A DNA stretch of 47,855 bases from an uncultured Pseudomonadota bacterium (GTDB lineage: Bacteria; Pseudomonadota; Gammaproteobacteria; Burkholderiales; Thiobacillaceae): the NCBI GenBank assembly GCA_903835655.1, contig CAILNT010000009.1, positions 1-47,855 of the forward strand, read 5' to 3'. Position numbers and translations under genes: made by a program. The notes below the pieces were generated by a model. It saw nothing but the letters and a program-made list of their open reading frames with translations. It did not search any database and was not told the DNA's origin. This document shows, piece after piece, positions 22,137 through 26,488 of the stretch (positions are counted from its first letter, which is position 1; every line of letters begins with the position of its first letter).

Positions 22137-22928
22137 TCACGCCGCATGCTTCAGATGTTTCTGGTACAGGAAGGCCAGCACTTGGCTGCGCAGGTGATGG
22201 TAGCGCGGCTCCACGGCGAGACTCAGACGGTCACGCGGGCGCGGCAGGTCGACGTCCAGGATTTCGCCTATGGTCGCCGCCGGCCCGTTGGTCATCATGA
22301 CGATGCGATCGGAGAGCAGGACGGCCTCATCGACATCGTGGGTGACCATCAAGGTGGTGGCCTTCGTTTCCTGGACGATGCGCATGAGCTCGTCCTGCAA
22401 GCCGGCGCGGGTGAGCGCATCGAGCGCGCCGAAAGGTTCGTCCAGCAGCAGCACCTTGGGCTCCATCGCCAGGGCACGGGCGATGCCGACGCGCTGCTTC
22501 ATGCCGCCTGAGATTTCATTGGGGTGCTTGGCGCTCGCGTGGGAGAGGCCCACCAGCTCGATGGCGGCCTGGGTGCGTTCCCTTAGCCTGGACTTGGGCT
22601 CCCTGGCGCCGAACACCCTTTCCACCGCCAGGTAGACGTTGCCGAAGCAGGTGAGCCAGGGCAGCAGGCTGTGGTTCTGGAAGACCACGCCGCGTTCCGG
22701 CCCGGGCCCCTTGATTTCCTTTTCCGCAAGCAACAGGACACCCTCCGTGGCTGTAGCAAGACCCGCGACCAGGTTGAGCAGCGTGGACTTGCCGCACCCG
22801 GAGTGGCCGATCAGGCTGATGAACTCGCCTTGCCCGACCCGGAGATTGATGTCGGTCAGCGCGGTGAATTTTCCCTTCTTGGTGTCGAACACCATCCTGG
22901 CGTGCTCGATGTGCAAATAGTTGTGCAT
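22137..22928 (-). CDS. nrtD: Nitrate/nitrite-type ABC transporter ATP-binding protein
   Basis: 263 residues from ATG 22928. Walker A GHSGCGKST, signature EISGGMKQRVGIARALAMEPKVLLLDEPFGALDALTR (signature, Walker B and D-loop in line) and the H-loop in MVTHDVDEA. It starts 11 bases after the permease stop. The closest families are NrtC/NrtD, CmpD and SsuB/TauB-type ATPases; nitrate specificity comes from the binding protein and leader upstream. It lacks the C-terminal NrtA-like domain of cyanobacterial NrtC, so it corresponds to NrtD. Confidence 0.88.
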   Translation of the reverse strand: MHNYLHIEHARMVFDTKKGKFTALTDINLRVGQGEFISLIGHSGCGKSTLLNLVAGLATATEGVLLLAEKEIKGPGPERGVVFQNHSLLPWLTCFGNVYLAVERVFGAREPKSRLRERTQAAIELVGLSHASAKHPNEISGGMKQRVGIARALAMEPKVLLLDEPFGALDALTRAGLQDELMRIVQETKATTLMVTHDVDEAVLLSDRIVMMTNGPAATIGEILDVDLPRPRDRLSLAVEPRYHHLRSQVLAFLYQKHLKHAA

Positions 22929-22939
22929 GGCGGTGCCCT

Positions 22940-23923
22940 TCACTCGTAATTGAACCGGTTCGCGACCATCACCAGGGCTTGTTCCAGCAGCAGGCCGGTG
23001 AAGCCGACGATGAAGATGGCGATCAGGATGTGCTCGACGTTGAGGTTGTTCCATTCGTCCCACACCCAGAAGCCCAGGCCTGTGCCACCGGTGAGCATCT
23101 CGGCGGCGACGATTACCAGCCAGGCCACGCCGATGGAGAGTCGGATCCCGGTCATCAGATGGGGCAGCACCGACGGGAACAGGATACGGGTGAATATCGT
23201 CCATTCCGACAAGTTCAGCACCCGCGCCACGTTGAGATAATCCTGCGGTACGCGGGAGACCCCGGCTGCGGTATTGAGAATGATCGGCCAGATGCTGGAG
23301 ATGAAGATAACCCAGAGAGAAGCTGGTTCGGTTTGCTTGAATACGTACAGGCCGATGGGCAGCCAGGCGAGCGGCGACACCGGGCGCAGCAGACTGATGA
23401 CGGGAGCGACCATGGCGGCCAGGAAGGCGAAACGGCCGATCAGGAAGCCGGCGGGTATGCCGACCAGGGCGGCCAGTCCGAAGCCGGCGCCGACGCGGTA
23501 GAGCGAATGCAGGATGTTCCAGCCTATGCCCTTGTCATTGGGGCCTTTGTCGTAGAACGGATCCGCAAACAGGATTTTCGCGGATTCCCAGGTCTTGGCC
23601 GGGCCCGGCAGCCCGTGTTCGCCACCGCTGCTGGAAACGATCTGCCAGAGCAGGATGAACAAGGCCATGCCCAGCAAGGGCGGGAGGGCTGCACGGAAGA
23701 ATTTGCCGACCGCCTCACCGAAGGCCTGGCCGCGTTCGGATTCCCACATCGGCGTCTTCCTTCCCTGGGGGAGGGCGCCGGCCTCGGCCCCGCGCTGCGG
23801 ATTGGTCTGGCTGTTTTTCCTTTCCCCCAGCCCCGGAGGGGGAGGAGGAGAGACGACCGGCGACGGTGGGGTGACTGGGGAATTCATGCTGTAATGGGTC
23901 TCGTTGAAAGTCACTGCGCTCAT
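22940..23923 (-). CDS. nrtB: Nitrate-type ABC transporter permease with Pro-rich N-terminal extension
   Basis: 327 residues. Residues about 60-327 are a typical NrtB/SsuC-type permease of six membrane helices with the EAA-like loop (AAGVSRVPQDYLNVARVLNLSEW). The first 58 residues are an unusual Pro/Gly-rich extension (PPSPVVSPPPPPGLGERKN). The DNA there resembles GC-rich intergenic repeats found nearby (about 23940 and 38460). ATG 23923 has an AGGAG at ideal distance; ATG 23749 (MWESERGQ) also has a GGAAGG and would remove the extension. Both starts are possible. Confidence 0.88.
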   Translation of the reverse strand: MSAVTFNETHYSMNSPVTPPSPVVSPPPPPGLGERKNSQTNPQRGAEAGALPQGRKTPMWESERGQAFGEAVGKFFRAALPPLLGMALFILLWQIVSSSGGEHGLPGPAKTWESAKILFADPFYDKGPNDKGIGWNILHSLYRVGAGFGLAALVGIPAGFLIGRFAFLAAMVAPVISLLRPVSPLAWLPIGLYVFKQTEPASLWVIFISSIWPIILNTAAGVSRVPQDYLNVARVLNLSEWTIFTRILFPSVLPHLMTGIRLSIGVAWLVIVAAEMLTGGTGLGFWVWDEWNNLNVEHILIAIFIVGFTGLLLEQALVMVANRFNYE

Positions 23924-24041: not shown

Positions 24042-25310
24042 TCAAGCCTTTACCTTGAACCCGTCGGCGTAGGCCTTCGGATTCTTGCCCTCCCACACCA
24101 CGCCGTCGATGAGCTTGGCACTGCGCATCTCCGACTTCGGCAACGGCGTATGCGTCATCGCGGCGGCTTCCTTGTAGAGCTGGATCTGGTTCACCGACCG
24201 GGCCACGGCCAGGTAATCCGGATGCTCCTTGATCAGACCCCAGCGCTTGTGCTGGGTCAGGAACCACATGCCATCCGACAAATAAGGGAAATTGACCCTG
24301 CCCTCGTTGAAGAACTTCATGTAATTCGCGTCCTTCCACTTGCGGCCGATGCCGTTGTCATAGTTGCCCTGCAAACGGTCTTCGATCACCTCGTAATCGG
24401 TGTTTACATAGTTCTTGCCCGAGATGATCCGGCCTACCTCGGGACGGTTACTCATGGTGTCGATGTACTTCGAGGCGTCGAGGAGGGCGGCGATCAGGGC
24501 ACGCGCGGTGTTGGGATGTTTGCGCGCGAACTCCAACGTAGTGCCCAACACTTTTTCCGGATGGTCGGCCCAGATATCCTGCGTGGTGGCGACGGTGAAG
24601 CCGATCTTGTCGTGGATGGCGCGCGCGTTCCAGGGTTCGCCCACGCAATAGCCGTCCATCTTGTCGACCCGCATGTTCGCGACCATCTGCGGCGGCGGCA
24701 CGGTGATGACCTTCACGTCGCGGAAAGGGTCGATGCCGTAGGACGCCATCCAGTAATACAACCACATCGCGTGGGTGCCGGTGGGAAAGGTCTGGGCAAA
24801 GGTCCATTCCTTGGGCTCAGCCTTCACCAGCCGGGCCAGGCCGGCGCCGTCGGTCACGCCCTTGGCCTTGATCTGGTTGTTCAGGGTGATGGCCTGGCCG
24901 TTGTTGCTCAGAGTCATGAGGACGGACATGTCCTTCTTCGGCCCGCCTATGCCCAGTTGCAGGCCGTAGATCAGACCGTAGAGCACATGCGCGGCATCCA
25001 ATTCGCCGTTGGACAGCTTGTCGCGTACGCCGGCCCAGGAGGCCTCCTTGCTGGGGATGATCTTGATGCCGTATTTTTTGTCGAAGCCCTTCTCCGCGGC
25101 CATCACCACACTGGCGCAATCGGTCAGGGGGATGAAGCCGATCTTGATCTCGGTCTTTTCCGGGGCGTCGGAGCCGGCAGCCCAGGCGGCGCTGCGCACG
25201 CCGGGTGGCACCAGGGCCATGAGGGCCGCGGCGGCGGAAAGTGTGGCGGTTTTTTTCATGAAATCACGCTTGCCATCGTCGATGAAGGGCGGGGTACCCG
25301 GCAGGTCCAT
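24042..25310 (-). CDS. nrtA: Nitrate-type ABC transporter substrate-binding protein
   Basis: 422 residues from ATG 25310, GGAG upstream. An N-terminal leader with KRDFMKKTA followed by a hydrophobic run resembles a Tat signal with Lys-Arg. The mature protein starts its NrtA/CmpA fold at EIKIGFIPLTDCASVVMAAE and has the family segments PTGTHAMWLYYWMASYGIDP, PPPQMVANMRVDKMDGYCVGEPWNA and FPYLSDGMWFLTQ. Length and motifs fit NrtA/NasF/CmpA rather than the shorter SsuA/TauA. It binds nitrate (possibly nitrite, bicarbonate or cyanate) in the periplasm. It is the first gene of nrtA-nrtB-nrtD, and its leader has a sigma-54 promoter and an antiterminator. Confidence 0.92.
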   Translation of the reverse strand: MDLPGTPPFIDDGKRDFMKKTATLSAAAALMALVPPGVRSAAWAAGSDAPEKTEIKIGFIPLTDCASVVMAAEKGFDKKYGIKIIPSKEASWAGVRDKLSNGELDAAHVLYGLIYGLQLGIGGPKKDMSVLMTLSNNGQAITLNNQIKAKGVTDGAGLARLVKAEPKEWTFAQTFPTGTHAMWLYYWMASYGIDPFRDVKVITVPPPQMVANMRVDKMDGYCVGEPWNARAIHDKIGFTVATTQDIWADHPEKVLGTTLEFARKHPNTARALIAALLDASKYIDTMSNRPEVGRIISGKNYVNTDYEVIEDRLQGNYDNGIGRKWKDANYMKFFNEGRVNFPYLSDGMWFLTQHKRWGLIKEHPDYLAVARSVNQIQLYKEAAAMTHTPLPKSEMRSAKLIDGVVWEGKNPKAYADGFKVKA

Positions 25311-25321
25311 GGTGAAACTCC

Positions 25322-25362
25322 AAAAAAAGACGGCGTCGTTCCCGCAAGGGGAAGGACGCCGT
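25322..25362 (-). terminator. Leader terminator upstream of nrtA
   Basis: On the minus strand ACGGCGTC pairs with GACGCCGT (8 bp, with further pairing inside the 17-base interval) and is followed by C and seven or more T. It stands 12 bases before the nrtA ATG, too early to end any gene, so it is an attenuator. Confidence 0.85.
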
Positions 25363-25414
25363 TGTCCAAGTTGCATCTGAGAAGGAGCGTGACCGGCGCG
25401 CCTTTGCACCGGTC
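25354..25414 (-). promoter_or_regulatory. ANTAR-type two-hairpin antiterminator in the nrtA leader
   Basis: Read on the minus strand, the first hairpin (25391-25414) is GACCGG-T-GC, loop AAAGGC, GC-G-CCGGTC. The second (25354-25367) is GGAC, loop AACGGC, GTCC. Both six-base loops have A at position 1 and G at position 4, the known recognition feature of ANTAR-domain antiterminators (NasR, NasT, EutV). The second hairpin uses the 5' arm of the leader terminator, so the two structures exclude each other. No ANTAR protein is encoded in the window. Confidence 0.75.
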
Positions 25415-25425
25415 GATGAATCTTT

Positions 25426-25441
25426 AGCAATACCCGTGCCA
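25426..25441 (-). promoter_or_regulatory. Sigma-54 promoter of nrtA
   Basis: On the minus strand TGGCACGGGTATTGCT is a full match to TGGCACG-N4-TTGCW. The predicted start near 25415 is exactly at the foot of the first leader hairpin. An AT-rich stretch (25440-25480), with an IHF-like CAATGAATTG, lies upstream. I found no confident NtrC site. Confidence 0.8.
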
Positions 25442-25595: not shown

Positions 25596-26039
25596 CTACT
25601 GTTTGACGAAATCGTCCAGTGTGGCCTTGAGCTCTTCCTGCCAGGCGCGGATCATCAGGTGTGCCGGGGCATCGGGGAATTCGCGCAACCAGGGCTCGAA
25701 ATCGTCGCTGATCACGGTCATGCGCCCATCCTTCTGGAACAGGGTCAGGCGCAGCGGCAACAGGTTGAGCAGCTTCGGCTCGGCCACTTCCGCCCAGCGC
25801 ACGGCGGACTCGCTACCGATGAACAGGATGCGGATATGCGGATTCTCGAAGCCACGCTTCTCCAGGGCGTGGTCGATGGGCTGCATTTTCACCAGGACCA
25901 GCTCATGGTTCGTTGCGGCCAGCGTGATGTCGTCCAAAGCCTGGCGCATGTCCACATTCTTGCTCACGCTCAGTGGCTCGGCCCGCACCGTGAGGACCAG
26001 CCCCACGCTCAGGCCCAGCACGCACAAGCTGCGTTTCAT
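25596..26039 (-). CDS. Exported DUF302-family protein (second of a pair)
   Basis: 147 residues from ATG 26039, overlapping the stop of the previous gene (ATGA). Signal peptide MKRSLCVLGLSVGLVLTVRA. The mature part has the DUF302 pattern: an N-terminal helix (ALDDITLAATNHELVLVKMQPIDHALEKRG), IRILFIGSESAVRWAEVAEPKLLNLLPLRLTLFQKDGRMTVI as the core strands, and a C-terminal helix. DUF302 proteins are small periplasmic or cytosolic alpha/beta domains of unknown role, often near redox or sulfur genes. It is homologous in layout to its neighbour. Confidence 0.75.
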   Translation of the reverse strand: MKRSLCVLGLSVGLVLTVRAEPLSVSKNVDMRQALDDITLAATNHELVLVKMQPIDHALEKRGFENPHIRILFIGSESAVRWAEVAEPKLLNLLPLRLTLFQKDGRMTVISDDFEPWLREFPDAPAHLMIRAWQEELKATLDDFVKQ

Positions 26040-26488
26040 AGCGAAGCCTCCTCCAGAATGCTCTGGTAATCGCGCTTCAGTTCCTGGCATTCATCGTGCA
26101 GAACCGGCATGTTCTGCGACACCCAGGCTGGATTTACCGCGATCAGGTCCACCCCGGTCGGCGTCTCCACCAGAGTGACGCGGCAGGGCATCATCTGCGT
26201 GGCGCGCGGGTCCAGGCGCAGGACACGATCCATGCGCGCGAAATTGCAGAAATAGACCAGCCGCACGGAGCGCACCTCCTGGGCATAGGGCACCAGTCGA
26301 CTGTCGATGGCTTGTTGCCGCACGAAACTGTAGTTATGGTCGGTGATGGCCTGGCCCAGCGCCAACACCGCCTGATCCATGGTCTTGCCCTGCGCGGTGG
26401 TGGTAATCAGCATGGGCTCGGGATCGCCCGCGTGTGCCGCGCCCAGACATACGAGCAAGAGGATGAATAGCCGAACCTGTTTTCTCAT
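26036..26488 (-). CDS. Exported DUF302-family protein (first of a pair)
   Basis: 150 residues with a signal peptide (MRKQVRLFILLLVCLGAAHA). Core segments match DUF302: a helix with HNYSFVRQQAIDSRL, RLVYFCNFARMDRVLRLDPRATQMMPCRVTLVET and then a C-terminal helix. It has two cysteines (YFCNF, MMPCR) in the core that its neighbour lacks. Translational coupling to the second DUF302 gene suggests the two proteins act together, perhaps as a heterodimer. It lies 60 bases after the MoeB-like gene. Confidence 0.75.
   Translation of the reverse strand: MRKQVRLFILLLVCLGAAHAGDPEPMLITTTAQGKTMDQAVLALGQAITDHNYSFVRQQAIDSRLVPYAQEVRSVRLVYFCNFARMDRVLRLDPRATQMMPCRVTLVETPTGVDLIAVNPAWVSQNMPVLHDECQELKRDYQSILEEASL

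Follow-up and report, generated by a model that had tools for sequence, protein, structure and literature searches.

How can the genes of a nitrate importer be expressed when a terminator stands between their promoter and their first start codon? The question is raised by three minus-strand genes in the window analysed here, a stretch of 47,855 nucleotides from an uncultured member of the Thiobacillaceae. nrtA (25310–24042) encodes a nitrate-binding protein of 422 amino acids (PF13379, 342.6 bits) with a Tat-like signal, KRDFMKK, recognised by eye; its closest solved structure is the nitrate-binding NrtA 2g29 (E 1.7e-81). nrtB (23923–22940) encodes a nitrate ABC permease (TIGR01183, 234.8 bits; cut-off 209.05) and nrtD (22928–22137) a nitrate ABC ATPase (TIGR01184, 343 bits; cut-off 291.8), the start of the latter being our by-eye choice of the ATG at 22928 inside a 355-amino-acid open reading frame (22137–23204). 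Upstream of the leader, two overlapping minus-strand open reading frames (25596–26488) are weakly DUF302-like (22.4 and 26.5 bits; cut-off 23).

Read directly on the minus strand, the leader consists of a sigma-54 promoter, a first hairpin (P1), a linker, a second hairpin (P2) merging into a terminator, a GGAG (25321–25318) and the nrtA ATG at 25310. The promoter TGGCACGGGTATTGCT (25441–25426) has the full consensus TGGCACG-N4-TTGCT, with GG at -24 and GC at -12. Transcription from sigma-54 promoters usually starts about 12 nt downstream of the -12 C, a spacing that predicts a start at 25417–25415, at the base of P1. P1 (25414–25391) pairs GACCGGTGC with GCGCCGGTC over 9 bp around the loop AAAGGC, which has A1, G4 and a C-G closing pair; it is seen in the sequence, in the fold and in the covariation described below. 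A linker of 23 nt (25390–25368) separates it from P2 (25367–25354), GGAC-AACGGC-GTCC, which is read in the sequence and found in relatives, and which has bases in common with the 5' arm of the intrinsic terminator predicted by folding (25362–25322: stem 25362–25330, then a C and seven T residues at 25328–25322). An earlier sequence-only reading of this DNA had recognised the promoter, the start at the base of the first hairpin, both A1/G4 loops, the overlap of the second hairpin with the terminator stem, and the terminator with its T-run. All of these were borne out, the start as a prediction from spacing, except that the T-run ends 11 bases before the ATG and not 12.

The leader is markedly more stable than expected by chance: positions 25425–25322 fold with -42.3 kcal/mol compared with -29.0 for shuffled sequences (z -4.1; none of 200 shuffles was as good). 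The minimum free energy structure contains P1 and the terminator, which is strong when taken alone and which displaces P2. As P2 and the terminator stem draw on the same bases, either one or the other forms, and this is the mutual exclusion that characterises ANTAR antiterminators. Two C-G-closed A1/G4 hexaloop hairpins (stems of at least 4 bp) followed by a T-run occur once in the window, at this leader, and on average 0.0 times in 20 block-shuffled windows. The window also holds a single full TGGCACG-N4-TTGCW consensus, again at this leader; the exact promoter consensus is found 11 times in the whole genome and, with up to one mismatch, at 61 places against 44 for the reversed pattern, so that the motif by itself says little. 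A weak NtrC-like dyad, CGCCCCGATTCGGCGCA (25552–25536, minus strand), was found by a dyad scan 111 nt 5' of the promoter; it matches 7 of 10 consensus bases compared with 6.5 in shuffles of the same single-base composition and is therefore not significant alone. Across 27 family leaders including that of the window, the mean is 8.3 against 6.6 in shuffles, and the best dyad lies at -90 to -104 from the promoter in 24 of the 27.

The sequence-only reading had placed the ANTAR protein elsewhere in the genome and had named its absence as grounds for rejecting the switch. The genome, 3.67 Mb in 132 contigs and 99.98% complete, encodes exactly one ANTAR protein (58.7 bits), on a contig other than that of nrtA, as well as one sigma-54 (RpoN). 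The ANTAR protein has 211 amino acids and the NasT-type arrangement of a receiver-like domain (Response_reg, 24.6 bits, E 3e-05, under the cut-off of 30.2) and an ANTAR domain (55.9 bits; cut-off 27.3); its nearest solved relatives are the antiterminator 1s8n and the response regulator 6wsh. A domain search detected no NIT domain in it. The suggested search for nasST or nasR thus turned up nasT, with neither a NasS nor a NIT-ANTAR NasR found by profile and domain searches.

nasT closes a nirB, nasA, nasT cluster on contig C114, presumably one operon, and nirB has a leader of its own comprising TGGCATG-N4-TTGCT, GGACAACGGCGTCC and a terminator. R1, a covariance model built from 26 leaders with the promoter columns excluded, matches this genome exactly twice: at the window leader, which was in its seed, and at the nirB leader, which was not (40.6 bits). 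No hexaloop hairpin was predicted upstream of P2 in this nirB leader. Across the genus, nirB leaders (L036, L035 and L037) retain promoter, P2 and terminator, and in two congeners the 5' loops, UUAAUC and UUCCUC, are without A1/G4. A single NasT probably acts on both the nirB and the nrtA leader, in which case importer and reductases would be co-regulated as one regulon; sequence alone thereby joins the importer and reductase genes in one probable NasT regulon.

Relatives provided a further view of the leader. Within the family, 88 of 117 genomes have NrtA at E 1e-60 and 83 have an ANTAR protein. The 67 nrtA loci with upstream DNA that were examined represent the better NrtA matches, lower identity classes (the sole class in some genomes) being omitted; a script that scores P2, terminator and promoter jointly accepted a leader at 59 of them. 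Among the eight that failed, L044 and L051 show P2 and six do not, one of the six (L057) having only about 120 bases upstream. The leader had been called unusual on nrtABD, a view that these counts reverse. Of the 67 genomes, 63 encode an ANTAR protein, and in 48 of these no more than 1.2 kb separates its ANTAR domain from nrtA.

For covariation we used 48 leaders anchored on the promoter, namely 47 of the 59 accepted leaders plus L044, all with P1 near the start site; in the 12 accepted leaders not used, P1 either comes to within 5 nt of P2 or is weak or not clearly present. The P1 loop has A1 in 48/48 and G4 in 47/48, and the -24 GG and -12 GC are present in 48/48, the leaders having been located by that motif. 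Over the eight P1 pairs analysed, 93.9% of cells were paired compared with 83.7% in shuffles, and 28 cells had changed on both sides compared with 7.2, shuffle controls that are flattering because the sequences are related; with the partner slid, 24.5–55.5% of cells were paired. Changes affect both partners in five of the eight pairs and a single partner in two; the eighth pair departs through unpaired cells alone. P1 played no part in choosing the loci for this test, which makes the promoter-aligned set fairer than an earlier one picked for pairing and A1/G4 and hence biased. P2 hardly varies and so gives no covariation information. Linker length in the family ranges from the 23 nt of the window to more than 50 nt (L045); a compacting hairpin within the long linkers was considered and rejected, because no shared structure emerged when the leaders were folded with P2 constrained.

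The leader extends well beyond the family. Across 399 genomes of the order, R1 matched 112 (the window's family and the seed genomes included; the filters were strict and weak matches were lost) and an ANTAR protein was found in 188. The two coincide strongly: 107 genomes have both, five a match only, 81 an ANTAR protein only and 206 neither (Fisher P 4e-38). Four of the five matches without an ANTAR protein (G079, G149, G216 and G298) are weak (E 0.0018 to 0.005); the strong one is in G161, a genome that is 67% complete.

We then considered the 82 leaders outside the family with R1 matches down to E 1.5e-7, a subset of all matches. In 77 of the 82, P2 is preceded by a promoter that matches 9 or more of the 12 consensus bases; shuffled upstream stretches give 1.3 of 82, and setting aside six leaders first detected through a promoter pattern, of which five were in the R1 seed, leaves 71 of 76. 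Between promoter and P2, hexaloop hairpins with stems of 5 bp or more number 107, 92 of them A1/G4, compared with 19.1 and 1.8 in shuffles; here, as for the dyad and promoter counts, the shuffles preserve single-base composition alone. A strict script placed at least two A1/G4 hairpins before P2 in 22 leaders, one in 46 and none in 14, so that 22 of the 82 have three or more ANTAR-type hairpins including P2 (e.g. L153, L158, L161, L165, L168, L170 and L174). Since R1 favours one A1/G4 hairpin per leader, this multi-hairpin figure is more telling than the hexaloop excess. The single 5' hairpin of the window leader sits at the start site, like the first hairpin in several three-hairpin leaders, and a middle hairpin may have been lost from it.

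NrtA-like genes are the commonest target, standing behind 47 of the 82 leaders, followed by NirB (9), NasA (2) and a gene closest to the signal-less NrtA paralogue (1), with other or no target in 23; targets were assigned by tblastn using protein queries from this genome and its congener G421, a search in which NrtA and NasS are not separable. Inspected by eye, the 23 include what we take to be numerous permeases resembling NarK and three proteins that look like siroheme methyltransferases. A sigma-54 promoter coupled to an ANTAR attenuator is thus a widespread arrangement for assimilating nitrate in the sampled order.

NasST controls the nirB leader of Pseudomonas, and nasF of Klebsiella oxytoca has a sigma-54 promoter. 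The NasST leaders of Paracoccus nasA and Bradyrhizobium nosR resemble the window leader in their NasT, in having hairpins before a terminator and in serving nitrate genes (PMC3795266, PMC6759348, PMC5424462); they differ in that here NasS was not found, the leader is on ABC importer genes and nasT is unlinked from nrtABD. The likeness to Klebsiella nasF that had been proposed holds for the RNA, which has two hexaloop hairpins with A1, G4 and a C:G closing pair (PMC7496416). It does not extend to the protein, as NasR is a NIT-ANTAR protein that senses nitrate itself whereas the NasT of this genome is of the receiver-ANTAR kind. EutV leaders share the dual hairpin, the A1/G4 loops and the opposition of P2 and terminator, whereas the sigma-54 promoter, the pathway and the linker differ: Enterococcus faecalis eut linkers are 5–12 nt and 14 nt already cuts induction (PMC3369931). 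The 23 nt of the window leader thus lie beyond the eut range and inside the 2–25 nt accepted by an actinobacterial ANTAR survey (PMC8164766). By its protein the window leader belongs with NasT leaders, and by analogy it would work like those of NasR and EutV. It is of a known kind and common in relatives; the absent sensor and the multi-hairpin leaders are what depart from the textbook and, together with the identity of the P11 and narK RNAs considered below, are its points of interest.

We consider it highly likely that nrtABD is under a two-step nitrogen switch dependent on sigma-54 and NasT. The promoter suggests that, when nitrogen is limiting, sigma-54 RNA polymerase aided by an NtrC-type activator would start the RNA at about 25416; by default the nascent leader would fold into the terminator (25362–25330) and transcription would halt. 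Free NasT is predicted to bind the A1/G4 loops of P1 and P2, and once P2 had formed the terminator stem would be excluded and polymerase would continue into nrtABD. The nrtA leader is, then, very probably an RNA switch that needs NasT on two hairpins for continued transcription, and it may respond to nitrate. Points against such a switch are the 23-nt linker, the failure to find a NasS, the 5' hairpins of the nirB leaders, the eight nrtA loci at which the script saw no leader, the 81 ANTAR-bearing genomes without an R1 match, the five matches without an ANTAR protein, the weakness of the NtrC-like dyad and the 14 of 82 leaders without an A1/G4 5' hairpin.

The nitrate step deserves particular attention. 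In Paracoccus, nitrate is sensed by NasS, which resembles NrtA and has no signal peptide (PMC3795266, PMC5424462). Searched with NrtA as query, this genome yielded only NrtA itself, and the NasS/NrtA profile PF13379 matched only NrtA, with its export-like signal, and a protein on contig C61 (43 bits). We judged the latter unlikely to be NasS, since it belongs only distantly to the family and, judged by eye, seems to carry an export signal. No NasS was found either in seven ANTAR-bearing relatives at least 95% complete (G167, G261, G291, G374, G443, G448 and G492; G443 and G448 are single contigs), each having a single PF13379 match, which in six is NrtA with a KRDF motif and in G492 lies in a stretch that gave no reading; the remaining ANTAR-bearing family genomes have extra PF13379 matches left unclassified, or lower completeness. 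The congener G421 has a signal-less NrtA paralogue directly behind nrtABD (L137, 4421–5611, plus strand), a candidate NasS; the cluster has nasT at its opposite end. In the genome of the window the nitrate step of the known NasST model is thus left without a sensor, and the description of the ANTAR protein as nitrate-released, which calls for NasS, could not be upheld. A sensor from a family other than NasS/NrtA is possible; a conserved attenuator without NasS raises the question of what signals nitrate to NasT.

One answer, possible though on balance doubtful, is that nothing does: with no NasS, NasT would always be free, and nrtABD would be set by sigma-54/NtrC and the level of NasT. This is a variant of the two-step switch with another signal, and it accords with the failure to find any NasS-family protein beyond NrtA and its distant relative. 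It accords also with the Paracoccus nasS mutant, which expresses nas without nitrate and not with ammonium (PMC5424462, PMC3795266). The place of nasT in a cluster behind a like leader means that the level of NasT could itself be the signal; the family-wide conservation of the P1 loop, P2 and terminator is, however, hard to explain for an attenuator that stands idle.

A second and improbable answer is that NasT is controlled by NrtA, which comes nearer to NasS than any other protein of this genome: NrtA would bind NasT prior to its own export and let go of it upon binding nitrate. The kinship of NrtA with NasS and the proximity of ANTAR domain and nrtA in 48 of 63 family genomes fit with this, as does the signal motif, which is KR and not RR in 40 of the 43 NrtA N-termini read correctly among 68 loci (a KR in L042 was discounted, being in the wrong frame). 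Phosphorylation also appears unlikely as a general NasT signal: of 30 aligned NasT sequences, 27 have Ala, Ser or Gly at the acceptor Asp position, although in the NasT of this genome the Asp is kept and the acidic pair is absent (all by eye). Yet an export-like motif is present in all 43 N-termini read, nasT and nrtA are on different contigs in this genome, and G421 keeps its separate signal-less paralogue, suggesting that the sensor there needs its own protein. Were NrtA, with its weak KR-type signal, the brake, NasT in this family would act without NasS, and importer and sensor would be one protein controlling its own leader. That the leader is simply a sigma-54 promoter and a terminator, the latter strong enough alone, with A1/G4 hairpins arising by chance, is effectively ruled out by the P1 covariation and loop conservation, the co-occurrence with ANTAR proteins, the excess of the A1/G4 loop class and the absence of the layout from shuffled windows.

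We also compared the window leader with Rfam. At gathering scores it had no match; below threshold it matched RF03032, the narK RNA (25440–25353, minus strand; 26.0 bits, gathering 43.2), and RF00625, P11 (25453–25332, minus strand; 22.6 bits, gathering 70), and further leaders of the set matched both, also below threshold. A search of the whole genome with RF03032 gave no match, but its controls were silent too, which makes the result uninformative. As in the window leader, the consensus lines of both families show hairpins, a stretch like P2 and columns resembling a promoter (GGCAC..TGC), and neither is labelled an ANTAR target in the table of the search tool. This shared anatomy suggests that both are NasT leaders: the narK RNA looks like an ANTAR leader family, and Pseudomonas P11 may perhaps be the terminated NasT leader of a nitrite reductase operon. 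A primary study reportedly describes P11 in nitrogen assimilation. P11 is known from work on pathogen avoidance by C. elegans, where it is described as a regulator of the nitrogen assimilation operon of PA14 (PMC12080996). Searches of a limited literature collection found no link of the narK RNA or P11 to NasT, nor of P11 to nirB, and gave no result for NasT with nrtA in Burkholderia-type bacteria. The RF03032 model starts with columns resembling a sigma-54 promoter (GGCaCA..UUGCU), a part that would belong to the DNA rather than the RNA, followed by a hairpin and a P2-like stretch; the RF00625 model has promoter-like columns (GGCAC..CUGC), an CCcGAuaGAACgGG hairpin with an A1/G4 loop, GGACAAAGGCGUCC and GGGACGCC.
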